Source of the DNA: Chitinophagaceae bacterium
GTDB lineage: Bacteria > Bacteroidota > Bacteroidia > Cytophagales > JASGCU01
Length of the DNA: 41,255 bases
NCBI GenBank assembly: GCA_030053935.1
Contig: JASGCU010000009.1
Span: 6,294-47,548 of the forward strand
Direction of reading: 5' to 3'
Shown here: one piece after another, positions 1,684 to 41,163 of the stretch
Numbering within the stretch: the first letter of the stretch is position 1
How the letters are laid out: each line of letters begins with the position of its first letter
The notes under the pieces: generated by a model
What the model was told of the DNA's origin: nothing
Databases searched by the model: none
Seen by the model: only the letters and a program-made list of their open reading frames with translations
Translations under genes and position numbers: made by a program

Positions 1684-1816
1684 CCCCACTCAACAGCACC
1701 TACCCAAAAGTGGAACAGGGGTGCCTTATCAAAATTTTAGTATTTAAACAAAAAAAATACCGATACTTTCTACTTTATTATCATAATCAATTTTAAAAAC
1801 TTAAAAAAATATTACT

Positions 1817-20248: not shown

Positions 20249-23200
20249 TCATTGTATTTTATTGTTTATAGTTTCTTTATTTTGTTGGATATTGGCTTCT
20301 GTTATGGCATTGTTAGAAACTTGTATTTCATAAATACTTCCGCTGAAGGCAGCGTTTTTTTGAGAATTATTTCCTATATGAAATAAGGATTCGCTGTTGT
20401 AATGGTCGGTATTATAAGGTGAGGAATGGATATTATTTCCATTGAGAATGATATCTATTTTTTTATTTGCAAATCTTATGACAATATAGTTGATTTCTTG
20501 AGGGGTAAGTTCTATGGATGCTACATTGACAAATGTTTGTTTATTTCCATATCCAAAAATATATTGATTTGTTTTTCCTATACTTTGAAGGGTGAATCCT
20601 TCTGCCCAAATGGTGCTTCTTATATTTGAAAAGATGGTGGCTTGTTCATTTTTTTGCTCGGTATCGGGTTTCACAATACATTGAATGGTGAAAGAAGTAT
20701 CTGTTATAAATGGAGGTAAGAAAGGGTCTGTTCTTTGTGTTTGAGAATTTATAAATTGTAAAGAATTGATTTTTTTAGGTTCTTCTAATAGCAAAGTAGG
20801 AGTATTATTTTTGTATACTGTGGTAAAATATCCTTTTTCTGAGTAAGCATTATAATCTAACAGGGGTAAAACTTCGTTCCATGCGATAGCGTTGGATTTA
20901 CTGGATACCATGTAATATCCGCTATCTAAAAAGGGTTGTAGATTAAGAGCAAGGTCTTTTTTTGTCAGAGCAGTTCCCATAGGGCTGTAAAAAGTTGTTG
21001 GTTTATATTTTCCCAAATGTGTTAATAAAAAACCTTCTCCAAAATAATTATATTCCACAAATAGTACTTTCGGGCTGTTATGGGTGATGCTACGAATATC
21101 TATATAGTAGCTTTCTTGACAAGGTTTATTCAAGCAGTGCAAAGCACCATAATAGGTAAAATCTTGTTTCCAATCAAATTGGAGCATATTTTTTATTTGT
21201 ATAGAAATTTTTGTAGTAATCCTTTCACTATAAAAATAACAGACCAATAGAAGAAAACAATAAGGAATGAGTTTATAAAAATAGGGAATGATATGTTCTT
21301 TCTGTAAAAAGAATTTTTGAGAAGAATTTGTTTTTATTTTTTGTTTTTCTATTTTTTTATGTGAGGAAGATACAGTGGTATTTGTTTTTGTAGGCAGGGG
21401 AACTATCAAAGAGATAATATCTATTAAAACAAAGAAAGACAGTAACAAAATAGTGGATACATTTATGATATTATTTTCGTGGCTTCTGCCAAAGAAGTAG
21501 AGAGAATGCCCTATTGCTAAAACAATAATAAAAATTCCTGTTTTAAAATAAGCATCGGATATTTTTTCTTTTATTCTCAGTAAAACAATAAAAAGAACGG
21601 AAAGCATGGGGGGAACGTACCAATAAAAAGAAATTTCTGATATAGCAATCATCCCTATACCATGTTTTGTCATAATAAGAGCTGCTTTTGGCATTATACT
21701 TCCGAAAATAACAAATACAGCCACCAAAGAAATACAGAGTATGAGTATATTCTGATAGGTAAGCAAGAGATATTTATGTATTTGTTGTTTGATATTTTCT
21801 ATAAAGTACTGTTTCTGAGTACTAAAAATATCATATAAAAAAAGAGTTCCTATGTATGCAATATAGCTTACTGTGTAGATAACTCCAAAATTTCTATGAA
21901 ATAAGAGGAGAAAAGCTAAGAATCCAGCAACAGACCAATGATAAGGTCCTTTCCAAAACACGAGCCAAAGTACTATAATCCACATATCTAAACGCCAAGG
22001 GGTTCCTGCAAAGAAAGTAGATATATAGTCCAGATTTCCATATAATCGGATTATAACTACGGTAAATATGAAAAATATTGCGAGGTGCTTGTTTAAAAAT
22101 ATTCGTTTGCTGAATAAAAATAATCCTATAAAAAATATATAAGTAGAAAATTGTCCTAATAGAGGAATCGTATTGATATCCCAATCAAAGACAAGCCATG
22201 GTAAACAAATAGCAGATAATAAAAAATCGTATGCAAAGTTTATATCTGACCAAGGAATGCCATTGAGCAGACGCATTGCGGGATAGAGTTGATATTGATA
22301 ATCTCCTATAGACCAATTTTGGGGAGAAAAGAAAGAGATGGGAACTAATACTATTGCCAATATCCATTCTTTTTTTTTAATTATGAAAAGAAGGGAAGAG
22401 ATACCTACAACAAGAAATAAAAGAGTTGGTATTTTATTGGTAGGACTTGATGAAGGTGGAAAAAAAGAAATATTAAAGATATAGAAACTTCCGATTATAA
22501 TAAGAATGAAAAGAATACTTGTAAAAAAAGAAGTTTTTTTTATTTTTTGAAAGGCAAGACAAAAAAGGAAAGAAAAAAGAATAATACTCAAAGAAAACAC
22601 ATAAAGAGAGTAACTTTCCATCCCATCTCGCTCTAAAACATAATGTGTAAAATAACCGATATATTCATGGAGAAGAAATGCTTCATTCATAGATCTTATG
22701 GTAGGGGACAGCAAAAAAAATAAAGAATAAAAGAGATAAGAGGTAGAAAGAGAAATCCAGATGATGTTCATTATGCTGAGTTTTTTCTCTTTTGTAAATT
22801 CTTGATTTTCTTGGTTATAAGAAAAAAAACTGAGTATACTCAGTACAATAATGAAAAGGATAGAGCAAAAAAGAGATGTTTTTCGGTTTTGGATATTTGT
22901 CTGCGATTCGGAAAGTGTATTTTTATAAGCATTATTTTGTGGGTTTTTTTGGATTGCTTTTTCTATATTTGTATGTGCTTTTTCAAAAAGATTTTGTGAA
23001 GAATATATAGTATAGAGCATGTTATATCCTTCTGCATGGTCGGGATAGAGATTCAAAAATTTATGAATATAGTATTCTGCTTTTTCCCATTTTTTAAATT
23101 GGATGTATATAATAGAAAGATAATAAAAAGCATTAGGATTTTGAGCATCTTTTGATAGTATTTGAAGACAAATTGCCTCTGCTGTTTCTAATTTTGTTTG

Positions 23201-23338
23201 GTTGAGACATTCTACTGCCCAATTTTGATACTGCTCAATAGATAAATCATGGGGAATAGAAATATTGTGTGTCCCCTGAGAAAATAAAAGGGAAGAAAAA
23301 CAAAGAGAAAACACGAAAAAAAGTATAGGAGTACGCAT
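20249..23338 (-). CDS. TPR, multi-TM and LamG-like protein, possible GT-C enzyme
   Basis: 1029-residue envelope protein. A signal peptide (about 1-20, ending LFSQG) is followed by TPR-type helical pairs (about 30-150), then roughly a dozen hydrophobic spans (about 155-700), and a C-terminal beta-rich region (about 850-1020) that resembles a LamG/concanavalin A-like sandwich (DTSFTIQCIVKPD, FANKKIDIILNGN, GSIYEIQVSNNAI). The middle contains GIPWSDINFAYDF in a loop after a span, which could be the acidic motif of a GT-C glycosyltransferase, but this is tentative. It lies 50 bases downstream of the GT39-like gene on the same strand and probably belongs to the glycan block. It could instead be a sugar-binding structural protein. 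Confidence 0.6.
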   Translation of the reverse strand: MRTPILFFVFSLCFSSLLFSQGTHNISIPHDLSIEQYQNWAVECLNQTKLETAEAICLQILSKDAQNPNAFYYLSIIYIQFKKWEKAEYYIHKFLNLYPDHAEGYNMLYTIYSSQNLFEKAHTNIEKAIQKNPQNNAYKNTLSESQTNIQNRKTSLFCSILFIIVLSILSFFSYNQENQEFTKEKKLSIMNIIWISLSTSYLFYSLFFLLSPTIRSMNEAFLLHEYIGYFTHYVLERDGMESYSLYVFSLSIILFSFLFCLAFQKIKKTSFFTSILFILIIIGSFYIFNISFFPPSSSPTNKIPTLLFLVVGISSLLFIIKKKEWILAIVLVPISFFSPQNWSIGDYQYQLYPAMRLLNGIPWSDINFAYDFLLSAICLPWLVFDWDINTIPLLGQFSTYIFFIGLFLFSKRIFLNKHLAIFFIFTVVIIRLYGNLDYISTFFAGTPWRLDMWIIVLWLVFWKGPYHWSVAGFLAFLLLFHRNFGVIYTVSYIAYIGTLFLYDIFSTQKQYFIENIKQQIHKYLLLTYQNILILCISLVAVFVIFGSIMPKAALIMTKHGIGMIAISEISFYWYVPPMLSVLFIVLLRIKEKISDAYFKTGIFIIVLAIGHSLYFFGRSHENNIINVSTILLLSFFVLIDIISLIVPLPTKTNTTVSSSHKKIEKQKIKTNSSQKFFLQKEHIIPYFYKLIPYCFLLLVCYFYSERITTKISIQIKNMLQFDWKQDFTYYGALHCLNKPCQESYYIDIRSITHNSPKVLFVEYNYFGEGFLLTHLGKYKPTTFYSPMGTALTKKDLALNLQPFLDSGYYMVSSKSNAIAWNEVLPLLDYNAYSEKGYFTTVYKNNTPTLLLEEPKKINSLQFINSQTQRTDPFLPPFITDTSFTIQCIVKPDTEQKNEQATIFSNIRSTIWAEGFTLQSIGKTNQYIFGYGNKQTFVNVASIELTPQEINYIVIRFANKKIDIILNGNNIHSSPYNTDHYNSESLFHIGNNSQKNAAFSGSIYEIQVSNNAITEANIQQNKETINNKIQ

Positions 23339-23388: not shown

Positions 23389-25041
23389 TTATTGAGTATT
23401 TTTATTTTTTTTAAAGTTTGTTTTTTTATGAGATATGGGTTTACTTATTCCTTTTGTGTTTTGTATAGAGTTATTTGGTTTATCATTCTTAACGGATTGT
23501 TGTATAGGACGGTTATTTTTCCAGAGAATCCAACAAAAAATGGGGGCTAAATAGTATGCAAAATGGAGCGGGTAGTTATAACGAATCATATTCATAGTTA
23601 CTACGCTTATGAGGAATGTGCTGAGAAAATTTATCAAGCAGAGTGTAAATAAGATAATGGAATCTATATTTTGAAATTTACTCTTGTATGCAATAACACC
23701 ACTATATACAAAAGCAATACAATAGAAAGCTACCCAAATAAGATTTCTAAATATACTATTATGCCATTCAGAGAGTTTTTGATTCCATCTCATAAGAGGT
23801 TTCGTTTTGAAATACGAAAGCTTCGTAATAGCTACTTGTTCCGATAGTTTTGGAGGAATAAATAACCCGTACTGTCCATTTTTATTTATAGCATCATAGA
23901 AATACGCATAAATCCTTCCGTTTGTAAAGTTTGTTTCATAATCTTTTAAAAATGGATAGGCAGATACTTCTTTGTGGTCAAAGCTCAAATAATAATATAT
24001 ATACTGGGCTATCAGGAATTTTAAGTATTTGAATGGATATTTCTGTATGGTACTCAATGCTACGTCATAACAGTCTTTATAAAATTCGGGAGATGATTTT
24101 TTTCTCCCTACCAAGAGAGAATCTTGAAGGCAAACTATATAGTTTTGATATTTTAAATAAATGCTATTTATGGAAGTAATATCCCATGAGGTATTGACAA
24201 ACTCTATTTCTCTTGGATCTGTATTCTTTAAAACACAATGGTCTATGAGAGCATTCATTCTCTCTGAATATTGTGGGTCTTTCTCAATAAATGTTAAAAC
24301 ATTTCCTATTATATCTGCCTTTCCTTGTGGAGAATAACCAAAGGTATCTATGGTGAGATAGTTAAAAATATTGAGTGATAAGTAAAAAAATAATACGGGA
24401 AAAGCATAGAGTATCTTTGTTTTATGAGGCATTTTCTTAAAAAACATATATGCTAATAACAGAATAAAAATAGGATACAACACTTGTCCCGCCGCTCTTA
24501 TATAAATGATGAGCATCATAATACAAGAACTCAGCATCCAGTAATACCATTTTTCTGTTTTTAATGCCAGCACTAATGAACCGAAGTAGAGTATCATAAA
24601 GTTCGTAAATAAGCCCTCGGTGAGTACTGTTGTTTCAAAATGTAAAAATATAACTGAGGAGCTGAAAACAGTAATTGCTAAACTGCACCATACAGTAAGT
24701 TGGGGGTATGTTTTGTGAATTGCAAAAATGAAAAATATACCTGTTAAAAAACCTATAATGCTTTGTATGTAAGTAACAACTACTACATCAGAACTTACCA
24801 TATATACCAATCCTAAAAATAATATATATCCCGGAGGACGTTTATAAAATTGAGGATTTCCTTCCACCATCTGCTTCATCACAGCCACATAATCAGGTCC
24901 GTCATCGAAAAGATACGGGATGTTTATGTAAATATAGTAGGGTAAACGAGTAAATAAAAAAAAGAAAGTAAAAATACCTATACCAACCCATAAACCATTT
25001 TTATTGGCAGCATTTAAAATATTCTTTATATAAAGGAGCAT
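23389..25041 (-). CDS. GT39/ArnT-like membrane glycosyltransferase
   Basis: 550-residue integral membrane protein with about ten hydrophobic spans in the first 330 residues and again at 420-510. The first periplasmic loop holds YLFDDGPDY (D46, D47, D50), the acidic motif expected of GT-C enzymes that use polyprenyl-phosphate sugar donors, followed by RPPGYILFLG, a typical GT39/ArnT motif. The C-terminus is a basic tail. It would transfer a lipid-linked sugar to an acceptor on the outer face of the inner membrane. It follows the aminotransferase gene by 149 bases. Donor and acceptor are not known; the GT2 gene at 31864-32787 could provide the donor. Confidence 0.7.
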   Translation of the reverse strand: MLLYIKNILNAANKNGLWVGIGIFTFFFLFTRLPYYIYINIPYLFDDGPDYVAVMKQMVEGNPQFYKRPPGYILFLGLVYMVSSDVVVVTYIQSIIGFLTGIFFIFAIHKTYPQLTVWCSLAITVFSSSVIFLHFETTVLTEGLFTNFMILYFGSLVLALKTEKWYYWMLSSCIMMLIIYIRAAGQVLYPIFILLLAYMFFKKMPHKTKILYAFPVLFFYLSLNIFNYLTIDTFGYSPQGKADIIGNVLTFIEKDPQYSERMNALIDHCVLKNTDPREIEFVNTSWDITSINSIYLKYQNYIVCLQDSLLVGRKKSSPEFYKDCYDVALSTIQKYPFKYLKFLIAQYIYYYLSFDHKEVSAYPFLKDYETNFTNGRIYAYFYDAINKNGQYGLFIPPKLSEQVAITKLSYFKTKPLMRWNQKLSEWHNSIFRNLIWVAFYCIAFVYSGVIAYKSKFQNIDSIILFTLCLINFLSTFLISVVTMNMIRYNYPLHFAYYLAPIFCWILWKNNRPIQQSVKNDKPNNSIQNTKGISKPISHKKTNFKKNKNTQ

Positions 25042-25182: not shown

Positions 25183-25220
25183 ATGATATATTAATTAACT
25201 GATGATATATTAATTAACTG
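25183..25220. repeat. 19-bp perfect tandem duplication at the aminotransferase 3' end
   Basis: Two perfect adjacent copies of ATGATATATTAATTAACTG (25183-25201 and 25202-25220). The repeat covers the stop codon of the aminotransferase. With a single copy the protein would end ...LINIS; 19 being no multiple of three, the second copy is read in another frame, so the protein now ends ...LINISSVN. This looks like a recent slippage event. Confidence 0.85.
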
Positions 25221-26315
25221 AATAATTTTGTTTTGCTCAAGTTCGGTCAATTCATAAAACAAAGGAAGTCGCACTAAGCAATCAGAATAACGATCACAGT
25301 TTGAAAGCACCCTTCCGTCATGTTTGTTTATATAGAAAGGGCTAGAATGTAATGAGATATAATGAAATACTGCCCATATACTATTTTCTTTTAGGGATTG
25401 AATCAATAAATTTCTTTTTTCAAGGGTTTTGCATACTAAATAAAACATGTGAGCATTATTAGTAGCGAAATCAGGTATATGTGGAATATCAAAATCTCTG
25501 TTTTGAGAAGAAGTAAAAGCATGGTTATATGCTTCCCATAATTTTTTACGCTTATTTTGGATATCATCAAGATTTTCTAATTGTGCATATAAAAATGCAG
25601 AAACCACTTCTGATGGAAGAAATGAAGAACCAATATCTACCCATCCATATTTATCAATTTCACCTCTAAAAAATGCAGAGCGGTTAGTACCTTTTTCCCA
25701 AATGATTTCAGCACGTCTAATAAACTGTTCATCATTAATAATAAGCATACCTCCTTCACCACTAATAATGTTTTTTGTTTCATGAAAAGAAAATGCTGCC
25801 AAATGACCTATACTTCCTAATGGTTTTCCCTTATAAAAACTATCTATAGCTTGGGCGGCATCTTCTACTACAAAAAGATTGTGGCGGTCAGCAATGTCCA
25901 TTATTGCATCCATATCACAGGCAATCCCTGCGTAATGAACTACTACAATTGCTTTTGTTTTAGTGGTTATGAGGGACTCGATCAAGTTTGCATCTATATT
26001 TGGGTTTCTCATATTAGAATCTACAAAAACCAATTTTGCACTACGAAGCACAAATGCATTTGCTGTTGACACAAATGTAAATGAAGGTAATATTATTTCA
26101 TCACCCTCTTGGATATTCAGGAGAATCGCAGACATTTCCAAAGCATCAGTACAGGATGTGGTTAACAGACATTTTTTGAATTTATATTTTGTTTCAAAAT
26201 ATTCATGGCATAATTTAGTATATTTGCCATTGCCAGATATTTTACCGGAATGTACAGCATCGTAAATATAATGTGTTTCTTTACCTGTAAGATAGGGCTT
26301 GTTGAAAGGTGTCAT
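25191..26315 (-). CDS. rffA: dTDP-4-oxo-6-deoxysugar aminotransferase, WecE/RffA-like
   Basis: 374-residue PLP-dependent enzyme of the DegT/DnrJ/EryC1/StrS family. Lys181 in SFHETKNIISGEGG is the PLP Schiff-base lysine; E151-D152 in VVEDAAQA contact the cofactor ring; TTSCTDALEM (52-61) binds the phosphate. The start FNKPYLTGKE and the whole-length pattern resemble WecE/RffA, which aminates C4 of dTDP-4-keto-6-deoxyglucose to make dTDP-Fuc4N. It acts in the cytosol. It lies 6 bases after a methyltransferase and closes a nine-gene minus-strand series with KAS III, ACP, SDR, Rieske, GNAT and GT2 genes. The C-terminus is altered by a 19-bp tandem repeat. The exact sugar is inference; no rmlA/rmlB is in the window. 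Confidence 0.85.
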   Translation of the reverse strand: MTPFNKPYLTGKETHYIYDAVHSGKISGNGKYTKLCHEYFETKYKFKKCLLTTSCTDALEMSAILLNIQEGDEIILPSFTFVSTANAFVLRSAKLVFVDSNMRNPNIDANLIESLITTKTKAIVVVHYAGIACDMDAIMDIADRHNLFVVEDAAQAIDSFYKGKPLGSIGHLAAFSFHETKNIISGEGGMLIINDEQFIRRAEIIWEKGTNRSAFFRGEIDKYGWVDIGSSFLPSEVVSAFLYAQLENLDDIQNKRKKLWEAYNHAFTSSQNRDFDIPHIPDFATNNAHMFYLVCKTLEKRNLLIQSLKENSIWAVFHYISLHSSPFYINKHDGRVLSNCDRYSDCLVRLPLFYELTELEQNKIIQLINISSVN

Positions 26316-26321
26316 GATTGA

Positions 26322-27146
26322 TTATTTTTTTTTAGCTACTACAATTAAAGATCCTCCAAATGGGAGTTTAAAACCAGACGATATTAAAATTTCATCCATT
26401 TTCATTAAAAACAGAAAAATCGTATTAATGAATGGATTTAATTTTAGTTCATTAATATCTCCTGTAATATCAGCTGCTTTTTTCCTTTTTAAAAATCTAG
26501 AAATCACCATAAAAGGAAAAAGTGTAAAAACAAAAGACCCTAAATATTCTACTTGAAAGTTATTATTTTCCAATTTGTTGTTAAGTTCAGATTTAGAATA
26601 TCTTCTTTTGTGGTAAGCTAAATCATCATTGATGCTCCACATCCATTGGTATTGGGGAACAGTAATAAAAAAATAACCTCCTTGTATTAAAGCTTTATTT
26701 ACTTGTTGAATAACTTTTATGTCTTCATCTATATGTTCAATTACATCAAAAGCACAAATACTATCATATTTATTAATAAAAGGCATATGAGTTGCATCTA
26801 ATTGAATAAACTCTACATGGGGCAATCTTTTTTTTGCAAATTTAATACCTTCAAGATGAATCTCCGATCCATAAAGATCATATTGTTCAAATTTTTCACT
26901 TAATCCTTTTAATACAAAGCCAGTTCCACAGCCAATTTCTAATACTTTCATTTTTTTGTTGCCAAGAAATTTACCGAACAAAAATTGTATAACTTTATTA
27001 CGCGAAACAAACCAAAAGTTTTTAGGTTCATATTCATACAAAATACTGAATGCTTCTTTAGGATAATCAGAATTTAATTTAGAAAGTTCAGGCGCATAAC
27101 ATTTAATACCGTCTATTAACTCATATTTATAATCTGTATTATTCAT
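26322..27146 (-). CDS. Class I SAM-dependent methyltransferase in glycan locus
   Basis: 274-residue methyltransferase. Motif I is KVLEIGCGTGFVLK (about 69-82), followed by the acidic YGSEIHLEG and the CAFDVIEHIDED segment (about 131-142), typical of Methyltransf_11/23 enzymes found in polysaccharide clusters. The C-terminal part has hydrophobic stretches (FVFTLFPFMVISRFL) that may touch the membrane. It sits 50 bases after a KAS III gene and 6 bases before the aminotransferase, so it is probably part of the same pathway, perhaps O-methylating the amino sugar or its acyl group. The acceptor is not determined by sequence. Confidence 0.75.
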   Translation of the reverse strand: MNNTDYKYELIDGIKCYAPELSKLNSDYPKEAFSILYEYEPKNFWFVSRNKVIQFLFGKFLGNKKMKVLEIGCGTGFVLKGLSEKFEQYDLYGSEIHLEGIKFAKKRLPHVEFIQLDATHMPFINKYDSICAFDVIEHIDEDIKVIQQVNKALIQGGYFFITVPQYQWMWSINDDLAYHKRRYSKSELNNKLENNNFQVEYLGSFVFTLFPFMVISRFLKRKKAADITGDINELKLNPFINTIFLFLMKMDEILISSGFKLPFGGSLIVVAKKK

Positions 27147-27196
27147 AGTTGAATTTTAATTCCCAAAATAGTGGTCAAATATACTATTAATTATTT

Positions 27197-28201
27197 TTAT
27201 TTTATTTTTAATATTGTACCTCCCCATGAATAGCCGACCCCAAAACCTGCAAGTAAGATGTTATTATTTTTAATGAGTTTTGATTCTTTTTTGGCATGGT
27301 ATAATGCTATAGGAATAGTTGAAGATACAGTATTGCCACAATTTTCTAAGTGTAAATAAAATTTATTCTCATCTATTTTGATTTTTTTTCTTAAACTATC
27401 AAGCATAAATTTATTTGCTTGGTGAAAAATATATAAATCAATTTCGGAACTTTCTAAATGATTTTTTAATAAAGTATTATAAGTGAGTTTAGGAACAGAT
27501 GAAAGGGTAAAAGTGAAAATTTCTGCTCCATTCATATATAAATGATCGTCTGAATGAACGTTTCCAAATTCGTCAATATTTTCCTCTGATTTAAAATGGT
27601 AATTTCTCAATCCGCCGTTTTTTACAATAAGATTCTTTGCTCCTTTTCCATCAGTTCCGTATTCAAAATTGAGAATCTCTGCAAAACCATCTGTTGATAC
27701 TAAAGTAACAGCTGCAGCATCTCCAAAAATAGTTCTATTGCTTTTATCTTTTGGATGAATAAATTTTGAATACGTTTCAGAAGTTATCAATAATACATTT
27801 TTCGCTTGACCAGAAGCAATTAGTCCTTTAGAAATTCCTAAACCATACACAAAACCTGAACAACCTAAATTAAAATCAAACGCTCCCACAGATGTAGGTA
27901 AACCTAATTTTTCCTGGACAATACATGCAGAAGTAGGTAAAAAATAATCAGGACTTTGAGTACATAGAATTATAAAATCGATATCATTTTTATCAATTTG
28001 ATGCTCTATAAATAATTTTTCTGATGCTTTAACAGCCATATCTACAGAAGTTTCATTCATTGCAGATAAATTTCTGCAATGAATGCCTGTTTTAGAAGCA
28101 ATTTTATCTATACTCCATTCGGGAAATTCTTGTTCTATTCTAACATTATCTAGTTCGTATTCAGGAAGATAATAAGAAATTGCTTTAATATATGAATTCA
28201 T
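27197..28201 (-). CDS. Ketoacyl-ACP synthase III, FabH-like (first of two)
   Basis: 334-residue thiolase-fold condensing enzyme. I start at MNSYIKAISYY, because the longer frame (to 28234) would run into the upstream SDR gene and its extra 11 residues lack family resemblance. The catalytic triad is complete: C114 in NLGCSGFVYG, H260 in IFHQAN and N290 in NCGNTVSS. This triad fits decarboxylative condensation of an acyl starter with malonyl-ACP. Family members with this overall pattern often serve specialised pathways. It lies 4 bases after the SDR stop. The presence of a second KAS III gene (30046-31104) and a dedicated ACP argues against a housekeeping FabH. Starter unit unknown. Confidence 0.85.
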   Translation of the reverse strand: MNSYIKAISYYLPEYELDNVRIEQEFPEWSIDKIASKTGIHCRNLSAMNETSVDMAVKASEKLFIEHQIDKNDIDFIILCTQSPDYFLPTSACIVQEKLGLPTSVGAFDFNLGCSGFVYGLGISKGLIASGQAKNVLLITSETYSKFIHPKDKSNRTIFGDAAAVTLVSTDGFAEILNFEYGTDGKGAKNLIVKNGGLRNYHFKSEENIDEFGNVHSDDHLYMNGAEIFTFTLSSVPKLTYNTLLKNHLESSEIDLYIFHQANKFMLDSLRKKIKIDENKFYLHLENCGNTVSSTIPIALYHAKKESKLIKNNNILLAGFGVGYSWGGTILKIK

Positions 28202-28205
28202 ATTT

Positions 28206-28961
28206 TTATAAAATTGAGGTTCTACCGCCATCAATAGGTATATTAGTTCCTGTTACCCATCTACTTTTGTCTGAAAGTAAAAATAAAGTTAAATTAGCTA
28301 CATCTGATGGGATTCCGTACCCTAAAGGATATTTTTTCTTATCAATTTCAAGAGCCTCGTTAGTGATAGTGCTTTGTATTGATTCAGTTAACGGGGTTTC
28401 TACCTGTCCAGGACAAATTGTATTTACTCTTATTTTTAAATTAGATACTTCTGATGCAAGAACTTTAGCAAAAATATCTAATGAAGACTTAGTCGTTGAA
28501 TACATTAAATTTCCTTTCATTCCAAAACTTCCAGCAATAGAACTTATAAAAATAATTGAAGCTTGATTTTTTATTTTTTTTTCTTTCAGTAAAATAGAAA
28601 TAATATTTGCTATTGAATCATAATTCACTTTTCTTATCTTATCTTGAAGTTGCTGATTATAAAATTTTATCGGAAGCAGTTTTACAATACCCGCAGCATG
28701 AACAATACCATTTAAAGGTCTGTCTAATTCTTTATGTAATGATGGATATCCATCAATGTTTTCCAAATCAAAAAGTACTGATTTAAAATTATTTTTATTG
28801 ATGAGTGAGGATGATAATTCTTTTAGTTTTAGACTATCTCTACTTATTGCAATTATTGAACCGTTATAGTGATCTATATTTTTACATATTTCCAAACCAA
28901 TTCCAGAGGTAGCACCCGTTACTAAAATTGTTTTACCTGATAAATCTATAAAATTGTTCAT
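28206..28961 (-). CDS. Short-chain dehydrogenase, FabG-like
   Basis: 251-residue SDR. The cofactor motif GATSGIG is at 16-22, HAAG at 88-91, the catalytic N113, S140/S141, Y154 and K158 (YSTTK) are all present, and the C-terminal GTNIPIDGG is typical of classical FabG-like ketoreductases. It would reduce a beta-ketoacyl-ACP to the 3-hydroxyacyl form, or, less likely, oxidise a sugar. It overlaps the Rieske gene by four bases (ATGA) and precedes a KAS III gene by four bases, which places it in the acyl-building module. Substrate is inferred only from context. Confidence 0.85.
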   Translation of the reverse strand: MNNFIDLSGKTILVTGATSGIGLEICKNIDHYNGSIIAISRDSLKLKELSSSLINKNNFKSVLFDLENIDGYPSLHKELDRPLNGIVHAAGIVKLLPIKFYNQQLQDKIRKVNYDSIANIISILLKEKKIKNQASIIFISSIAGSFGMKGNLMYSTTKSSLDIFAKVLASEVSNLKIRVNTICPGQVETPLTESIQSTITNEALEIDKKKYPLGYGIPSDVANLTLFLLSDKSRWVTGTNIPIDGGRTSIL

Positions 28962-30043
28962 TTAATAAGATTTAAATAATGATTATGAAAATTTACAATT
29001 CTTTGTTCTTGGTTTCCAAGGATATATTTTTCTTTTACAAATTTCATGTTTTTTTGAATTTGTTCTAAAATTACTTTATCTTCTAATAGTATTGAATTTA
29101 TGGAAGTTCTTACCATCTCTAAAAAAGCATTATGAATTGAGATTTTTGGTTCGAAACCCTCTTGAAATTTTACATCGTAAAATCTCTTTCTTAAAATTGA
29201 TTTTTCTGATGAAATTGGTAAAATATTTCCAATATATATACTAGTACCCTCTGTAGATGAAATTAATAAATTTGGAAAAATGAAAAAGTGTTTAAAAGTA
29301 TCATGTTTGTACGTTCTTTTATCTAGGTACTGTAACATTTTGTTGGTTTGATAATCTTCGTTTTTGGGATAATCTGCTACTGAATGACCATTATAATATT
29401 CTTGATTCTTCTCAGGGACTCTACAAAACCCCATATTCATAAGCGTATTTTTGTGTATTGAAGGGCAATGATATGCTTCAATTACATTCTCAATAATTAT
29501 TTTCCAATTTATATTTTGTGAATCTTCTTCAAAATAATGTTTTGTTGTAATTGCATTACTTATTTCAATTAATTTATCATAAAATCCACCTAAATATTCT
29601 TTTATAATAGTTGGATTTTCTGATAGATTTACAAAATAAAATTTACCTACCTTTTCTAAATTGAGTCTTTTAACACATGCTTTTTTAAAACTTTCTTCTT
29701 CTGTGTTGAATAGTGGTATTAAGCTTCTTGTTATTGGCTTACCATCAATATCAAAAGACCAACTATGATATTCACAAACAAATGGTCTTTTACCTGATTT
29801 TTCTTTTTGAATCAAATTAAATCTATGAGGGCATATATTTTTAAATGCCCTAACATCGCCTTTAAAATTTTGTAAAACAATAGGGTAATTAAAAATATTT
29901 ACAGTAATAAATTTATTATTCTCATCTAATTCATCGTCCATTGCAGCAAAAAACCATTCTTTTGAAAAAATATTATTAAACTCAAGTTCTGCTAATTCTG
30001 GATTACAGTAATATTTTGAATAAATTAAATTTTTATTTGACAT
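28958..30043 (-). CDS. Rieske-type non-haem iron oxygenase, alpha subunit
   Basis: 361-residue oxygenase component. The Rieske [2Fe-2S] ligands are C71-P-H73 and C90-E-Y-H93. The mononuclear iron site is visible as E186-N, A190-Y-H192 and H197 (ENVIEAYHCPSIH), with the third carboxylate most likely D322 in LLEDKVILEQIQ. The family includes ring-hydroxylating dioxygenases, choline and carnitine monooxygenases and natural-product oxidases; all need an electron-donating reductase or ferredoxin, and none is encoded here. It is embedded between a KAS III gene (2 bases) and an SDR gene (4-base overlap), so oxidation of an ACP-bound acyl chain or of the sugar is plausible. That role is inference. 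Confidence 0.88.
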   Translation of the reverse strand: MSNKNLIYSKYYCNPELAELEFNNIFSKEWFFAAMDDELDENNKFITVNIFNYPIVLQNFKGDVRAFKNICPHRFNLIQKEKSGKRPFVCEYHSWSFDIDGKPITRSLIPLFNTEEESFKKACVKRLNLEKVGKFYFVNLSENPTIIKEYLGGFYDKLIEISNAITTKHYFEEDSQNINWKIIIENVIEAYHCPSIHKNTLMNMGFCRVPEKNQEYYNGHSVADYPKNEDYQTNKMLQYLDKRTYKHDTFKHFFIFPNLLISSTEGTSIYIGNILPISSEKSILRKRFYDVKFQEGFEPKISIHNAFLEMVRTSINSILLEDKVILEQIQKNMKFVKEKYILGNQEQRIVNFHNHYLNLIK

Positions 30044-30045
30044 AA

Positions 30046-31104
30046 TTATAAATAAGAAAAACTACAAATTATTTCATCTTTATTTTCATTTTTATAATGT
30101 AATGCACCCCAAGATAACCCCACTCCAAATCCACACATTACAAAATTATCTTTCATACTTTTATTATGATAATTATAACAGAATGTTAATGGAATGGATG
30201 CCCCATTGGTATTTCCAAAATCTTTTATAGAATAAATAAATTTTTCTGGATTTATTTTGAGTTTCTTTTTTATAGTTTCATTCATGAAAAAATTGGCTTG
30301 ATGGAGTATAAAAAAATCAACCTCATCAATAGTTAAATTTATTTTTTGTAATAATGTATTGATTGTTTCTGGAACAGTTTTAATGGCAAAATTAAAAATT
30401 TCAATACCATTTAAGGATAAATCTATTTTTTTTCTTTTATTGGTATTATTTGAACCATAATTTTCATAGGTTAAGCAATTTTCATCAAATAAATTTCTTG
30501 CTCCTCCATGACTAATTTTAATTGCATCTTCACCCTTACCATCTGACCCTGTTACAAAACTCATATTAGTATTTATTGCATCGTCATATTCTAATGCAGT
30601 AGCTGTTCCCGCATCTCCAAAGAGGGGATAAATACTTTTGTCATGAACGGATGTAAACTTGGTGATTGTATCACCAACTAGTAAAAGACCTTTTCTAAAA
30701 GCAATATTTTGTAAAAGACTAGATAATAAACTCATTCCGTAAATATATCCCGAACACCCTAAACTTATATCTAAACAAAAGCAATTCTTTGATAAACGTA
30801 ATTTTTCTTGTAAAATATTAGAAGTTGCAGGCAATATGTAATCTGGAGTCTGGGATACAAAAATTAAAACATCAATTTCATCTTTATTCCAATGTAATTT
30901 AGTTATTATATCACTTGCAGCCTTTAAACACAGATCAGATGCACAAATTGATGAATCTGCAATATGTCTTTGTACAATTCCTGTATTTTTAGTAAAATTA
31001 TCAGATTCATTAGGACTAAAAATATCAGAAATTTTTTCTGTTTTTTCTGGCACACACGTTGCTACTCCTTTAATAGTAATATTTTTGAATTGGTAAAAAC
31101 CCAT
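30046..31104 (-). CDS. Ketoacyl-ACP synthase III, FabH-like (second of two)
   Basis: 352-residue condensing enzyme of the KAS III family with the triad C117 (SLGCSGYIYG), H268 (ILHQAN) and N298 (DFGNTNGAS) intact. It is clearly related to the other KAS III in the cluster, sharing for example SQTPDYILPAT versus TQSPDYFLPTS, but is diverged over the whole length, so the two are old paralogues with separate roles rather than a fresh duplication. It lies 3 bases after the ACP gene and 2 bases before the Rieske gene. One enzyme may start and the other extend, or one may act as an acyl transferase; sequence does not decide. Confidence 0.87.
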   Translation of the reverse strand: MGFYQFKNITIKGVATCVPEKTEKISDIFSPNESDNFTKNTGIVQRHIADSSICASDLCLKAASDIITKLHWNKDEIDVLIFVSQTPDYILPATSNILQEKLRLSKNCFCLDISLGCSGYIYGMSLLSSLLQNIAFRKGLLLVGDTITKFTSVHDKSIYPLFGDAGTATALEYDDAINTNMSFVTGSDGKGEDAIKISHGGARNLFDENCLTYENYGSNNTNKRKKIDLSLNGIEIFNFAIKTVPETINTLLQKINLTIDEVDFFILHQANFFMNETIKKKLKINPEKFIYSIKDFGNTNGASIPLTFCYNYHNKSMKDNFVMCGFGVGLSWGALHYKNENKDEIICSFSYL

Positions 31105-31107
31105 CTC

Positions 31108-31338
31108 TTATTGTTTAGATTTTACTATATTATATAAATCTTCAACTGTATTTGATGAGCGAAAATCATCTCCGCTTACACTTATACTATACTCATCATC
31201 AATAAAAGCAATAATAATTAATGCCATCATAGAACTCCATTCATTTAAATCTTTATAAACAGTTTCATAATTTATTAATTCTGGTTCCGTTTCGTCAAAT
31301 TGAAATCTAAATTTTTTTAAAAAATTTTCTTTATCCAT
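31108..31338 (-). CDS. Acyl carrier protein, cluster-specific
   Basis: 76-residue acidic protein with the size and helical pattern of an acyl carrier protein. The motif LNEWSSMMAL aligns with the phosphopantetheine site; S36 is the predicted attachment residue, and the usual DSL triplet reads SSM here. Helix III region AFIDDEYSISVSGDDF and the TVEDLYNIV end are typical. It would carry the growing acyl chain for the neighbouring KAS III, SDR and GNAT enzymes. It overlaps the GNAT gene by 8 bases and lies 3 bases before a KAS III gene. It is not the housekeeping AcpP, whose DSLD motif is strongly conserved. Confidence 0.8.
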   Translation of the reverse strand: MDKENFLKKFRFQFDETEPELINYETVYKDLNEWSSMMALIIIAFIDDEYSISVSGDDFRSSNTVEDLYNIVKSKQ

Positions 31339-31855
31339 TTTGTAATATTTTTTTTATTTTATGTGTTTTTTTTTCATAATTATTAGGAAATAGTTCAAAG
31401 TATACTATTTCTTCAGTGCTTTTAGATTCATTTTTTACACAACCTTGAGAAATACTGGAAGATATTGCCTTTTTATTTGTTGCTTTTACATGCGAATAAA
31501 TACATTCTATTTTTAAATCATAAAATATATAATCGTTAAAACATATAACCATTTTAGCAACAATATCTGTGTTTTCAAATTCTGGACCTATTAAAAAAAT
31601 ACCTCCTTCACCACGGTTATTTTCTATATTTTTGAGATGAATGACACCAAGAGGTGCATCATTTTTAAACCCTATAAAATAAAAATTTTTAGTTTTATCT
31701 AAATTATTATACCAATTTAATTGCATATTTGATGTGATATAATCTTCATAAAGCATCTGACTTCTTACATAATCAGAATTTCTCCATTTTCTCATATCCT
31801 CAATATATTTTTCAGACAATCGTATTAATTTTATATTATACTTCTCAATAGTCAT
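31331..31855 (-). CDS. GNAT N-acyltransferase, PseH-like
   Basis: 174-residue GNAT-fold protein. The WRN motif at about residues 23-25 (MRKWRNSDYVR) and the following GVIHLKNI strand resemble PseH and other acyltransferases acting on nucleotide-linked 4-amino sugars. The acyl-donor loop (usually Q/RxxGxG/A) is degenerate: the region GPEFENTDIVAK replaces it. This could reflect acyl-ACP rather than acetyl-CoA as donor, which would fit the overlapping ACP gene (8 bases). It would N-acylate the amino sugar made by the aminotransferase at 25191-26315. Donor and acceptor are inferred. Confidence 0.7.
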   Translation of the reverse strand: MTIEKYNIKLIRLSEKYIEDMRKWRNSDYVRSQMLYEDYITSNMQLNWYNNLDKTKNFYFIGFKNDAPLGVIHLKNIENNRGEGGIFLIGPEFENTDIVAKMVICFNDYIFYDLKIECIYSHVKATNKKAISSSISQGCVKNESKSTEEIVYFELFPNNYEKKTHKIKKILQNG

Positions 31856-31863
31856 ATTTATAT

Positions 31864-32787
31864 TTAATTAAATTCTTCTTCAATAATAAAAGATGGTCTG
31901 TTTTTTATTTGCTCAAAAACTCGCCCCAAATATACTCCAACTATGCCAATAGCACAAATAATAATCCCCGAAAGAAAAAATAAAGATACTATCAAAGATG
32001 CGTAACCAGGAACAACTACTCCACCACTTATTGCTTGGGTTATATAATACCCTCCGATAATAAATGAGATGAGAGATATTATTACTCCTAACTTGACGAA
32101 TAATTTAAGTGGCTTGTTTGAATAAGCGATAATGGATGTAAATGCCAAATCTAATAACTTTGATAATGTATAGTTTGACTTTCCGCTATCTCGCTCTGCA
32201 TGTTCAATTTCTAAGGCATAACTATTAAAACCTACAAAATATACAAAAAGTGGAAATGACTTTATATAATCACCCATATTAACTACTTCTTTAATTACTT
32301 TTTTATGATAAATTCCAAAATTTGCAATTTCATGATTTACTTTAATATCCGATAAGTAATTAAAAAAAATAGAAAATAATCTTGAACCTAATTTTTTGAA
32401 GAAACTATCTTTTCTATTGACTCTTCTCGCTTGCACAATATCGTATCCTTCTGTTGCTTTGGCAAGTAATTTTTCTATTTCTTTTGGTTGGTCTTGCAAA
32501 TCACAATCCATTACTACAATCCATTCTGCATTTGTTTTAGTTAATCCTGCCATAATCGCAGGATGTTGTCCAAAATTTCTACTGAATCTATAAATTTTTA
32601 AAAATGAATATTTTTCTTTTAATTCTTTCATAACATGCCATGAGTTATCAGGACTTCTATCATCAACTAATACAATTTCAAAAGTTACATCCATTTTTTT
32701 CATAACTTTTTGTATTTCCAGAACAAGTTTTTCTAAAATTTTTTCTGCCCTATATACTGGACTAACAACGGAAATAAAAACACCCAT
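31864..32787 (-). CDS. GT2 polyprenyl-phosphate glycosyltransferase, GtrB/ArnC-like
   Basis: 307-residue family 2 glycosyltransferase. SVVSPVYRAEKI opens the GT-A fold, VLVDDRSPDNSW (about 40-51) binds the nucleotide, and VMDCDLQDQP (about 92-101) holds the DxD metal motif and the family's characteristic DLQDPP-like sequence. Two membrane spans at about 228-252 and 262-290 end the protein. This is the layout of GtrB, ArnC and dolichol-phosphate-mannose-type enzymes, which transfer a sugar from a nucleotide to undecaprenyl phosphate at the cytosolic face. It is the first gene of the nine-gene series and 9 bases upstream of the GNAT gene. Confidence 0.85.
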   Translation of the reverse strand: MGVFISVVSPVYRAEKILEKLVLEIQKVMKKMDVTFEIVLVDDRSPDNSWHVMKELKEKYSFLKIYRFSRNFGQHPAIMAGLTKTNAEWIVVMDCDLQDQPKEIEKLLAKATEGYDIVQARRVNRKDSFFKKLGSRLFSIFFNYLSDIKVNHEIANFGIYHKKVIKEVVNMGDYIKSFPLFVYFVGFNSYALEIEHAERDSGKSNYTLSKLLDLAFTSIIAYSNKPLKLFVKLGVIISLISFIIGGYYITQAISGGVVVPGYASLIVSLFFLSGIIICAIGIVGVYLGRVFEQIKNRPSFIIEEEFN

Positions 32788-38530: not shown

Positions 38531-39331
38531 ATGAAAACATTTGATGAAAATATATTAACCGATTCTCTTTGGGTATTAGGGGAAAGGGATAAGCAATTTG
38601 GACACAGTAATGTATATCATGGCAATTTTATTCCACAGATTCCCCGACAATTTATAGAAAGATTTACAGAAGAGGGAGATGTGGTATTAGATGCTTTTTT
38701 AGGAAGCGGAACTACTCTCATAGAATGCAGAGAAAAAAAACGATACGGAATAGGCATAGAACTTCAAGAGAAAGTAGCCGAGATGGCAGGTAATATCATA
38801 TTAGGAAATAATAATGGTTTTTTTGATAAAAAGAGAGAAGAGTTAGAAGCTTTGAATCTCAAAATACTTTGTGGGGACTCTACTTCTTTGGAAATGAAGA
38901 AAACCGTTGGGGAACAATTACAAGAATGGAATAAAAAAATAAAACTTCTTCTTTTACACCCTCCCTATTTTGATATTATTAAATTTAGTGAGGATGCGAA
39001 TGATTTGAGCAATGCCAAAAGTTTGGATATTTTTAACTCTTTATTAGGAAACATAGTAGATAATTACCTTCCGCTGATGGAAAAAAATAGTCATATAGCT
39101 TTAGTTATTGCAGACAAATATGCAGAAAGTCAATGGGTTCCTTTAGGTTTTTATGCAATGCAAGAAATACTCAAAAGAAAAGAACTCATACTCAAAGCAA
39201 CTATCATAAAGAACATGTCGGGTAATAGAGGAAAGATACAACAAGAAGCTTTGTGGAGATACAGAGCATTAAAAGGAGGTTTTTATATATTTAAACACGA
39301 ATACATTTTTTTATTTCAAAAAGTAATGTAA
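38531..39331 (+). CDS. DNA methyltransferase, FxGxG-first arrangement
   Basis: 266-residue amino-DNA methyltransferase (N6-adenine or N4-cytosine). The SAM-binding motif DAFLGSGTT (54-62) comes first and the catalytic motif HPPY (143-146) later, so the order is that of alpha/gamma-class enzymes, opposite to the other methyltransferase of the locus. The usual first residue of the catalytic motif (D/N/S) is His here. No separate target-recognition domain is obvious at this short length. It lies 15 bases after obgE and 6 bases before the putative endonuclease. Two methyltransferases with one endonuclease suggest an asymmetric target with each strand modified by its own enzyme. Confidence 0.82.
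   Translation: MKTFDENILTDSLWVLGERDKQFGHSNVYHGNFIPQIPRQFIERFTEEGDVVLDAFLGSGTTLIECREKKRYGIGIELQEKVAEMAGNIILGNNNGFFDKKREELEALNLKILCGDSTSLEMKKTVGEQLQEWNKKIKLLLLHPPYFDIIKFSEDANDLSNAKSLDIFNSLLGNIVDNYLPLMEKNSHIALVIADKYAESQWVPLGFYAMQEILKRKELILKATIIKNMSGNRGKIQQEALWRYRALKGGFYIFKHEYIFLFQKVM
39271..39306 (+). repeat. Copy 1 of an imperfect direct repeat (methyltransferase 3' end)
   Basis: This 36-base stretch in the last codons of the first methyltransferase recurs at 41220-41255 with one missing base and three substitutions; the longest identical run is 18 bases. Here it encodes the residues GGFYIFKHEY. See copy 2. Confidence 0.7.
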
Positions 39332-39337
39332 AGAAAC

Positions 39338-40327
39338 ATGGGAGCACATACATTTATAGTAAACACTGATACATTTCCACTCTGCAGAGATAGTGGTTTT
39401 GTAGCAATACCAAAAGAGGAAAGAGAAAAGCCATTATGGGAAAAAACACAAGCGGATATTTTAGCAGATATATCTTGTCTAAGAGTGGGTGATTCTGTGT
39501 TTTTTTATGAGATTCAGGTAGGGTTTCATGGAATTTATGAAGTTCATAGTTTACCTTTTGTAGATAATACGGATGAAATATATCCTTATAAAGCACTTAT
39601 AAGACCTAAATATTATTTACCTATACCATTAAAAGAAAGCAGAGCATTTGGGTTAAAAAATTCTGCTACAGACCTTCGTTCTATCTTTTATAAAAAAGTA
39701 TTAGGAAGAGGTAAAGCAAATACACATCTTTTTCCTGAAGAAGAAAAATTATTAACAGAACTTTTATTTAAAGCTAATAACGGAGTAAAAGAGCTTATTA
39801 TAAATCCTTACCAAGCAAAACAATCACAGAGGATATTTTTTAATATTGAACCCAATGAACAAGGGGAGGTGAGGTATGAAAAGATATTAGAAGGATGGAT
39901 TGTTCAGAATATAGATGATTTGAAAGCAAATACCAGCGTCTTTTTAGGGGATATACAAGATATAGAATGCTTTGCAAATTATGTCCCTATAAATATTGCA
40001 GGTGGAAATATAGACATATTAGTATATCATAAAAAGAAAATACAAAATAAAGAAATACGGTATAAGATATCCATTATAGAATTGAAAAAAGGAGATATTA
40101 ACATAGATGCTGTGAAAGAATTAGAGACCTATATAAAGTGGGCTTATGAAAATATTAGCAACGGAGATATGGAAATTATTCAACCAATACTTATTGGAAA
40201 AAGAATAAGAAATGAAGCAATAGAAAGATGTAAACATTATTCCATTAATGAAAGAAAACCTTTATTAATAGAATATAACATTGATACAGCAAATAAATGG
40301 ATTCATTTTTTACAAAAACAATACTAA
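39338..40327 (+). CDS. Putative restriction endonuclease: EVE-like plus PD-(D/E)XK
   Basis: 329-residue protein. Residues of about 1-95 resemble an EVE/PUA-like domain (TFIVNTDTFP at the start, LRVGDSVFFYE, GIYEVHSLPFVD), a fold that reads modified bases. The C-terminal part (about 175-290) has the PD-(D/E)XK pattern: an upstream Glu near 185 (EKILEGWI), D226 in GGNIDILVY and E248-x-K250 in SIIELKKG, similar to the NucS/DUF91 type of nuclease. Its position between two DNA methyltransferase genes (6 bases after one, 2 bases before the other) argues for a restriction endonuclease. Whether it cuts unmodified or modified DNA is open; an EVE-like sensor would allow the latter. No trained family name given. 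Confidence 0.72.
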   Translation: MGAHTFIVNTDTFPLCRDSGFVAIPKEEREKPLWEKTQADILADISCLRVGDSVFFYEIQVGFHGIYEVHSLPFVDNTDEIYPYKALIRPKYYLPIPLKESRAFGLKNSATDLRSIFYKKVLGRGKANTHLFPEEEKLLTELLFKANNGVKELIINPYQAKQSQRIFFNIEPNEQGEVRYEKILEGWIVQNIDDLKANTSVFLGDIQDIECFANYVPINIAGGNIDILVYHKKKIQNKEIRYKISIIELKKGDINIDAVKELETYIKWAYENISNGDMEIIQPILIGKRIRNEAIERCKHYSINERKPLLIEYNIDTANKWIHFLQKQY

Positions 40328-40329
40328 AG

Positions 40330-41163
40330 ATGGAATTAAAAGAACATAAAAATACAATATACTGTGGGGATGCTTTGGAAACATTACAAAAGCTCCCAAA
40401 AGAATCTGTTCACCTTATAATAACCTCCCCACCCTATAATCTTAATATTGCCTATAATAATCATAATGATGAAATGCCCTATAATCAGTATTTAGAATGG
40501 ATGGGCAACATTTGGAAAGAATGTAAAGAAGTGTTAGTAAAAGGAGGAAGATTATGCATTAATATTGGAGAGAATAAGAGACAAAATATTACCTGTCCCA
40601 CTTATTCTGCTTTTATTCAACAGTGTGTAGATAGAGATATGCTTTACAGAGGAACTATTATATGGAATAAAAACAGTGCTGCAAATCATACTGCATGGGG
40701 CAGTTGGAATAGTTGCTCTAATCCTCATCTGGTGCCGAGGCATGAATATATTATTATCTTTTCAAAAGGAGATTATAAATTAGAAGGAGATAAAAAAAAT
40801 TGTGACCTGCAAGAAGACGGAAAAGAATTTATGGAATTTACCCGAAGCGTATGGACTATGGGAACAGAAAGTAAGACAAAAATAGGACATCCCGCACCTT
40901 TTCCTTTGGAACTGCCGAGAAGATTGATAAAATTTTACTCTTATAGAGGAAATACTGTCTTAGATCCTTTTTCGGGAAGCGGCACTACAGGCGTTGCCGC
41001 AGTATCCTTGATGAGAAATTGTATACTTATAGATAATTCTGAGGAGTATTGCTTGCTTGCCAAAACAAGAATAGAGAAAGAAGGAAATAATTTGTTTCAA
41101 AAAAATACAATAGATATACAAAATTCAGTATCTGCTCTCAAATATACTAGTATTGATAAATAA
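40330..41163 (+). CDS. Beta-class DNA methyltransferase (TSPPY)
   Basis: 277-residue DNA methyltransferase with the catalytic TSPPY at 32-36 and the SAM-binding DPFSGSGTT at 212-220, the catalytic-first order of the beta class. SPPY is frequent in N4-cytosine methyltransferases but also occurs in N6-adenine enzymes. The region between (about 110-185, including AWGSWNSCSNPHLVPRHEY) is the target-recognition part. I start at 40330, just after the endonuclease stop, because MELKEHKNTIYCGDAL is the family-like beginning; the longer frame from 40297 overlaps the endonuclease. A strong hairpin terminator follows at 41163-41199. Confidence 0.88.
   Translation: MELKEHKNTIYCGDALETLQKLPKESVHLIITSPPYNLNIAYNNHNDEMPYNQYLEWMGNIWKECKEVLVKGGRLCINIGENKRQNITCPTYSAFIQQCVDRDMLYRGTIIWNKNSAANHTAWGSWNSCSNPHLVPRHEYIIIFSKGDYKLEGDKKNCDLQEDGKEFMEFTRSVWTMGTESKTKIGHPAPFPLELPRRLIKFYSYRGNTVLDPFSGSGTTGVAAVSLMRNCILIDNSEEYCLLAKTRIEKEGNNLFQKNTIDIQNSVSALKYTSIDK

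Follow-up and report, generated by a model that had tools for sequence, protein, structure and literature searches.

A 41,255-nucleotide stretch of contig JASGCU010000009.1 from a Chitinophagaceae bacterium, referred to here as the window, carries a nine-gene operon at positions 25191-32787 of the minus strand. Taken as a whole, this operon probably builds a short custom acyl chain on its own acyl carrier protein (ACP), oxidises it with a Rieske oxygenase, attaches it to the nucleotide sugar dTDP-Fuc4N, and loads the product onto undecaprenyl phosphate. From the 5′ to the 3′ end, the genes encode a family 2 glycosyltransferase (GT2), a GNAT acyltransferase, the ACP, a 3-ketoacyl-ACP synthase III (KAS III) designated KAS_A, the Rieske oxygenase, a short-chain dehydrogenase/reductase (SDR), a second KAS III designated KAS_B, a methyltransferase, and a DegT aminotransferase. 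Judged from gene order, this set lies far beyond chance, since the order of seven of the genes recurs in an independent contig (L027) and that of five in many Flavobacterium species.

Recurrence of the Rieske gene with the acyl genes

A profile of KAS_B was searched against 84,980 species genomes and yielded 71 loci, 70 of which were annotated around KAS_B. No genome of the same genus or family was found among the relatives searched. The closest relative of the operon was locus L027, with the order GT2-GNAT-ACP-KAS_A-Rieske-SDR-KAS_B and 53-74% identity to the window genes, and the order that recurs in Flavobacterium is ACP-KAS_A-Rieske-SDR-KAS_B. The L027 contig (29% GC) is labelled Candidatus Nitrotoga and is probably misbinned, with a Bacteroidota origin.

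The Rieske gene was present in 28 of the 70 annotated loci. Each of the 28 also contained an N-acyltransferase together with an SDR. KAS_A was present in 27, the lone locus without it being L052, which lies on a truncated contig. In 27 Flavobacterium loci, the Rieske gene accompanies the SDR and KAS_B, with a PglD-type acyltransferase coming next; the ACP and KAS_A were present in all except one truncated contig. Among well-flanked loci with a KAS_B of at least 50% identity, the Rieske gene occurred in 25 of the 30 with KAS_A versus none of the 16 without it. When 250 Flavobacterium genomes were compared, the Rieske gene was found in 14 and KAS_B in 22, and all 14 belonged to the KAS_B set (hypergeometric P ~1e-17, a value that ignores shared ancestry); the two genes were within 1.4 kb of each other in 13 of these genomes and 7.6 kb apart in one. 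The Rieske gene was missing from all Bacteroidales, Paludibacter, and Treponema loci that the KAS_B profile recovered, which would fit a requirement for oxygen.

The genes around this core are exchanged. The partner aminotransferase is of the WecE type in the window, LegC-like in L123 (361 bits), and DesI-like in L017 (229 bits), and the acyltransferase has either the GNAT or the PglD fold. Of the O-antigen loci in the 250 Flavobacterium genomes, L123 and L124 have the order KAS_B-ACP-KAS_A-Rieske-SDR-PglD-DegT and lie in polysaccharide regions with apparent rml genes, while L131 (KAS_B-ACP-KAS_A-SDR-PglD) has the same order minus the Rieske gene, which stands between KAS_A and SDR in the other two. 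The initial annotation of the window had expected the acyl and sugar genes to stay together across relatives; the acyl genes do adjoin amino-sugar N-acyltransferases, but the aminotransferase itself is exchanged between loci. Because the Rieske, KAS, ACP, and SDR genes stay together while the aminotransferase class and acyltransferase fold vary, the acyl chain is a likelier Rieske substrate than the sugar, and we regard action on the acyl group as fairly likely from this pattern.

The association extends beyond Bacteroidota. A flagellin island on plasmid p3 of Azospirillum brasilense Sp7 contains KAS III, Rieske, SDR, a PseH-like GNAT (67 bits), pseG, pseI, ACP, and flagellin genes, and the Rieske proteins of the modules, including that of Azospirillum, formed one clade with 100/100 support, apart from five catabolic or other Rieske sequences. 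The best plasmid matches to the Rieske protein, from Priestia, were rejected as module members, as they lie in catabolic operons of the tartrate or glycine-betaine type, and were used only as an outgroup. A single-sequence Rieske scan of the genome contigs collection returned no match.

Three further loci showed variations in gene number. The Azospirillum island (L115, 11294-28001), which comes from a cultured model, contains two KAS III/SDR sets, Rieske, ACP, a CoA ligase, and pseudaminic-acid genes. A Flavobacterium polysaccharide locus (L125, 1267-16315) carries an expanded module with Rieske, three KAS III genes (two KAS_A-like and one KAS_B), and two ACPs. In Seramator thermalis (L060, 7961-11000), three nearby KAS III genes stand beside one ACP and one SDR, without a Rieske gene.

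Enzymes encoded by the operon

The part families were checked with Pfam, NCBIfam, and PDB sequence searches, and the open reading frames (ORFs) of the window were verified. The nine tightly packed genes and the families named in the initial annotation were confirmed (Table 1). The successive gaps from GT2 to DegT are 8, -8, 3, 2, -4, -29, 50, and 6 bases, so that seven of the eight junctions are shorter than 10 bases or overlapping. The overlap of -29 between SDR and KAS_B is probably a 4-base gap in reality, because the homologues start at ATG 28201 in the alignment. The G+C content is 25-28% over the block centre versus 29-36% in the rest of the window. Promoter and terminator scans of the locus gave no meaningful excess over shuffled sequences.

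Table 1. Coordinates of the operon genes and of two membrane proteins downstream of them in the window
Feature	Coordinates	Strand	Evidence
GT2, GtrB/ArnC-type undecaprenyl-phosphate glycosyltransferase, 307 aa	31864..32787	-	PF00535, GtrB/ArnC matches
GNAT, PseH-like amino-sugar N-acyltransferase, 174 aa	31331..31855	-	TIGR03585, PDB PseH
Dedicated acyl carrier protein, 76 aa, Ser36 in EWSSM	31108..31338	-	Weak PP-binding match, model, conserved Ser
KAS III 'A', 352 aa	30046..31104	-	PF08541/PF08545, PRK09352 220 bits
Rieske non-haem iron oxygenase alpha subunit, 361 aa	28958..30043	-	PF00355 + PF00848
SDR, probable 3-ketoacyl-ACP reductase (FabG-like), 251 aa	28206..28961	-	PF13561/PF00106
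KAS III 'B', 345 aa as called, likely start ATG at 28201	27197..28234	-	PRK09352 273 bits
Class I S-adenosylmethionine methyltransferase, 274 aa	26322..27146	-	PF13489/PF08241
DegT-family aminotransferase, WecE type, 374 aa	25191..26315	-	NF008687, TIGR02379, 4piw
Polytopic membrane protein, 550 aa, unproven member	23389..25041	-	Position after DegT, hydrophobic segments
Tetratricopeptide repeat (TPR) + ~14 transmembrane segments + C-terminal Laminin_G_3, 1029 aa, unproven member	20249..23338	-	Domain and transmembrane analysis

On the acyl side, the ACP had no Pfam match at E 0.001 and only a sub-threshold PP-binding score (14.5 bits), although some of its relatives exceed that cut-off. Its Ser36 is invariant in 35 relatives, its AlphaFold model has a predicted local distance difference test (pLDDT) score of 93.6, and the best 50 Foldseek matches listed were all ACPs (best E 1.7e-3), some of them as chains or domains within larger complexes. 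Both KAS III proteins have the Cys-His-Asn residues, which are conserved in the KAS_B alignment. The PRK09352 score of KAS_B is above the cut-off, and its relatives are 65-74% identical; the KAS_A relatives within the same modules share 42-57% identity. FabG subfamily models were among the best matches of the SDR, none of them above its cut-off. The locus thus has a dedicated ACP with the phosphopantetheine serine, two distinct KAS III, one ketoreductase, and an adjoining amino-sugar N-acyltransferase, as expected of a module of the Flavobacterium psychrophilum wfp type.

On the sugar side, the aminotransferase exceeded both WecE/FcnA cut-offs (NF008687, 563 bits, cut-off 375; TIGR02379, 523 bits, cut-off 435). 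Its best solved relative in the PDB search was E. coli WecE (4piw, 408 bits); the next family scored 157 bits. RmlA (465 bits) and RmlB (471 bits), both above cut-off, are encoded elsewhere in the genome. Since a WecE-type aminotransferase is combined with RmlA and RmlB, the expected product is dTDP-Fuc4N, formed from dTDP-4-keto-6-deoxyglucose. The GNAT scored 48.8 bits with TIGR03585 (PseH), and its nearest PDB entry is PseH 4xpk; it is classed by sequence as PseH-like rather than PseH because it falls below the curated cut-off of 93.1. These results bear out the 4-amino sugar and the PseH-like N-acylation, with a chain built on a dedicated ACP, that had been proposed initially, and production of an N-acylated 4-amino sugar by the locus is highly likely.

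The GT2, which had also been annotated as GtrB/ArnC-type, gave a full-length match to the GtrB-like phrog_841 (251 bits), and in the PDB search it matched sll0501 GtrB with 181 bits and ArnC with 159 bits. It has C-terminal transmembrane helices at 227-245 and 265-283, and its counterpart in L027 is 61% identical. With the ArnC equivalog model it scored 179 bits, below the cut-off of 529 bits. Loading of undecaprenyl phosphate by this enzyme is likely.

The Rieske ligands C71, H73, C90, and H93 and the iron ligands H192, H197, and D322 were conserved in all 21 proteins compared. Among solved structures, CntA-type quaternary ammonium monooxygenases came closest in both sequence and fold. With the GbcA model the protein scored 110 bits, below the cut-off of 670 bits. 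Proteins with a Fer2 domain are encoded elsewhere in the genome, and one of 356 aa with a C-terminal Fer2 resembles a PaaE-type ferredoxin reductase by sequence.

The best NCBIfam match of the methyltransferase was BioC with 54 bits, far under the cut-off, and the gene is not kept in the nearest relative loci, being absent from L065 and from L027 up to the contig end. By analogy with vioM (PMC3927599), its target could be the sugar 2-hydroxyl, and it could also be an acyl hydroxyl.

Two large membrane proteins are encoded downstream, and neither was matched to a known transferase in the Pfam, NCBIfam, and PDB searches. The first starts 149 bases past DegT, has at least five strong hydrophobic segments, and gave no match of any kind in these three databases; as a guess, it could be a GT-C glycosyltransferase acting downstream. 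The second ends in a lectin-like Laminin_G_3 domain at its C terminus and also has TPR and some 14 hydrophobic segments, an architecture unusual for GT-C; it is a possible GT-C-type partner. Transfer beyond undecaprenyl phosphate may involve both proteins.

Proposed pathway and alternative explanations

The pathway proposed here, with its substrates, chain length, oxidation site, step order, and end glycan, is a prediction and runs as follows. The products of RmlA and RmlB would be converted by the WecE-type aminotransferase into dTDP-Fuc4N. On the dedicated ACP, one KAS III would join acetyl-CoA and a malonyl unit. After reduction of the 3-keto group by the SDR, a further extension by the other KAS III would yield a short hydroxyacyl-ACP resembling the 3,5-dihydroxyhexanoyl made by F. 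psychrophilum. The two KAS III and one reductase of the locus fit two rounds of condensation, the number proposed for that group. A housekeeping reductase would supply electrons to the Rieske oxygenase, which would then add one oxygen to the acyl chain, for example to form a trihydroxyhexanoyl group; a C6 trihydroxy-type product is a tentative suggestion. The PseH-like GNAT would take the acyl group from the ACP and attach it at the 4-amino position of the nucleotide sugar. The initial annotation had placed the acyl group on a lipid-linked sugar, but the precedents of PseH, PglD, and WecD would have it added to the nucleotide sugar, ahead of lipid loading. The methyltransferase would O-methylate the sugar or the acyl group. 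The GtrB-type GT2 would then place the sugar on undecaprenyl phosphate so that it can be transferred outside the cytoplasmic membrane, a transfer that the downstream membrane proteins may carry out.

Several observations weigh against this pathway. The closest solved relatives of the Rieske protein oxidise quaternary ammonium compounds rather than acyl-ACP, the confidence of its model is moderate (pLDDT 65.9), and no electron-transfer partner or reductase was found within the operon. The chain-length specificity of the KAS and of the GNAT is not readable from sequence. The Rieske tree was built with five outgroup sequences and a midpoint root, with the Xanthomonas protein (discussed below) not included, and most of the supporting Rieske loci come from one genus. 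The arrangement of WecE, GNAT, and two KAS also occurs without the Rieske gene in L065, L026, and L028, and the Rieske gene is therefore an add-on; in L065 the order is GT2-GNAT-ACP-KAS_A-SDR-KAS_B-(membrane acyltransferase)-WecE.

Rieske oxygenases hydroxylate varied substrates, and the solved relatives closest to this one act on small polar molecules. The enzyme might then oxidise the sugar, either nucleotide- or lipid-linked, while the KAS, ACP, and SDR make a plain 3-hydroxyacyl or 3,5-dihydroxyhexanoyl group. We consider this unlikely, as the Rieske gene lies within the block of acyl genes and stays with KAS, ACP, and SDR while the aminotransferase changes class and the acyltransferase fold switches from GNAT to PglD. 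It is less probable still that the locus is an ordinary one of the wfp or Pseudomonas syringae vio type, in which the Rieske protein is electron-starved, vestigial, or active on an unrelated substrate and the locus makes an already known hydroxyacyl amide. The occurrence of the same genes without Rieske in L065, L026, L028, and L131 and the lack of a reductase in the operon would agree with such an idle enzyme, but none of the iron-sulphur or iron ligands is lost in any of the 21 proteins, the gene is kept in many species of two phyla, and the genome encodes the PaaE-like protein described above.

KAS III, ACP, oxygenase, and methyltransferase genes are also found together in natural-product clusters, and the locus could be a small secondary-metabolite cluster for a released amide or glycolipid instead of a surface-glycan modification. 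This seems very improbable given the GtrB-type GT2 with two transmembrane helices, the WecE aminotransferase, the location of relatives in O-antigen or flagellin loci, and the window ORFs adjoining the operon, among which no exporter, thioesterase, nonribosomal peptide synthetase, or polyketide synthase gene was found.

With acyl-chain oxidation as the preferred role, it is a serious possibility, falling somewhat short of probable, that the members of a dedicated and horizontally spread Rieske clade oxidise short acyl chains, either while these are bound to a private carrier protein or once they have just reached the sugar. The surface amino sugars of bacteria would thereby receive polyhydroxylated N-acyl groups, a chemistry undescribed for any Rieske enzyme in the literature searched. 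Searches on Rieske with pseudaminic acid, Rieske with Flavobacterium lipopolysaccharide, and trihydroxyhexanoyl polysaccharides found nothing relevant. If the Rieske enzyme does hydroxylate the acyl chain, it would represent a new class of glycan-tailoring oxygenase and a genetic marker for predicting polyhydroxylated acyl groups. Its role can be tested directly, because clusters that carry the gene and clusters that lack it occur as natural pairs. N-acyl groups on surface amino sugars have known effects: N-acyl differences in the R-group change the O-serotype in F. psychrophilum (PMC6519341), and modified viosamine affects flagellin glycosylation in P. syringae (PMC3927599).

Neighbouring genes and known systems

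The same contig carries putative defence genes. A PARIS-like anti-phage pair, consisting of an AriA-type ATPase and AriB (DUF4435, 157 bits with PADLOC), spans window positions 44-1683 and positions 5546-6301 of L024, the part of the contig upstream of the window; AriA is apparently split in two frames (L024 5546-6301, then window 44-754), possibly by a frameshift or assembly error. Further upstream, L024 encodes a Type IIG/ISP restriction enzyme-methyltransferase of 1194 aa (65-3649, PADLOC 1108 bits). At window positions 38531-41163, two N6/N4 DNA methyltransferases flank a 329-aa protein without a Pfam match, which may form a type II restriction-modification unit.

The operon resembles the Arn pathway and the Gtr serotype-conversion modules in its sequence of an aminotransferase, an N-modification, and loading of undecaprenyl phosphate by an ArnC/GtrB-type GT2, but it uses a custom acyl group instead of formyl, and the locus includes neither a dedicated flippase nor an identified ArnT-type transferase.

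For the acyl genes, F. psychrophilum wfpC-G is alike by gene description, with two different 3-ketoacyl-ACP synthases (wfpC/wfpE), a dedicated ACP (wfpD), one ketoreductase (wfpF), and an amino-sugar N-acyltransferase (wfpG, PglD); its product, determined by nuclear magnetic resonance, is 3,5-dihydroxyhexanoyl on Qui2NAc4N (PMC6519341). Judged by gene letters, the gene order of L131 is the wfpC-D-E-F-G order. In contrast to the window, no Rieske is reported for wfp, the acyltransferase has the PglD fold rather than that of GNAT, the sugar is UDP-Qui2NAc4N instead of dTDP-Fuc4N, and the product enters a Wzx/Wzy O-antigen instead of GtrB-type loading. The viosamine island of P. syringae, vioA-vioM-vioT-vioS-vioB-vioR-acp (PMC3927599), shares the aminotransferase, methyltransferase, KAS III, ketoreductase, ACP, and an acyltransferase acting on a dTDP-4-amino sugar, but it has a single KAS III, no Rieske, and a 3-hydroxybutyryl product. 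Its flagellin glycosyltransferase VioT (1,173 aa) has no counterpart of that type in the window operon, the GT2 of which is of the GtrB type.

Rieske genes do occur in two other comparable regions. The A. brasilense Sp7 island has a Rieske of the same clade with KAS III, SDR, PseH-like GNAT, and ACP, but differs in having pseG and pseI of a pseudaminic-acid pathway, an additional CoA ligase, different glycosyltransferases, and a flagellin gene. In Xanthomonas, the published annotation of XCV2007-XCV2013, next to fleQ, lists a Rieske protein, an acetyltransferase, two SDRs, a 3-oxoacyl-ACP synthase, an ACP, and an aminotransferase side by side (PMC3826837, table), which is a similar set but with one KAS III; in the part of PMC3826837 that holds this table, no function was found assigned to the cluster. 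The Rieske gene and the paired KAS III had been taken initially to set the locus apart. This no longer holds, as many loci, wfpC/wfpE among them, already have KAS III pairs, and Rieske genes turn up again in Flavobacterium, Azospirillum, and, by the published annotation, Xanthomonas; uniqueness of the locus was rejected accordingly. No functional description of the Rieske clade was found in the literature searched, and it is this recurrent clade, tied to the acyl modules of surface amino sugars, that remains of interest.

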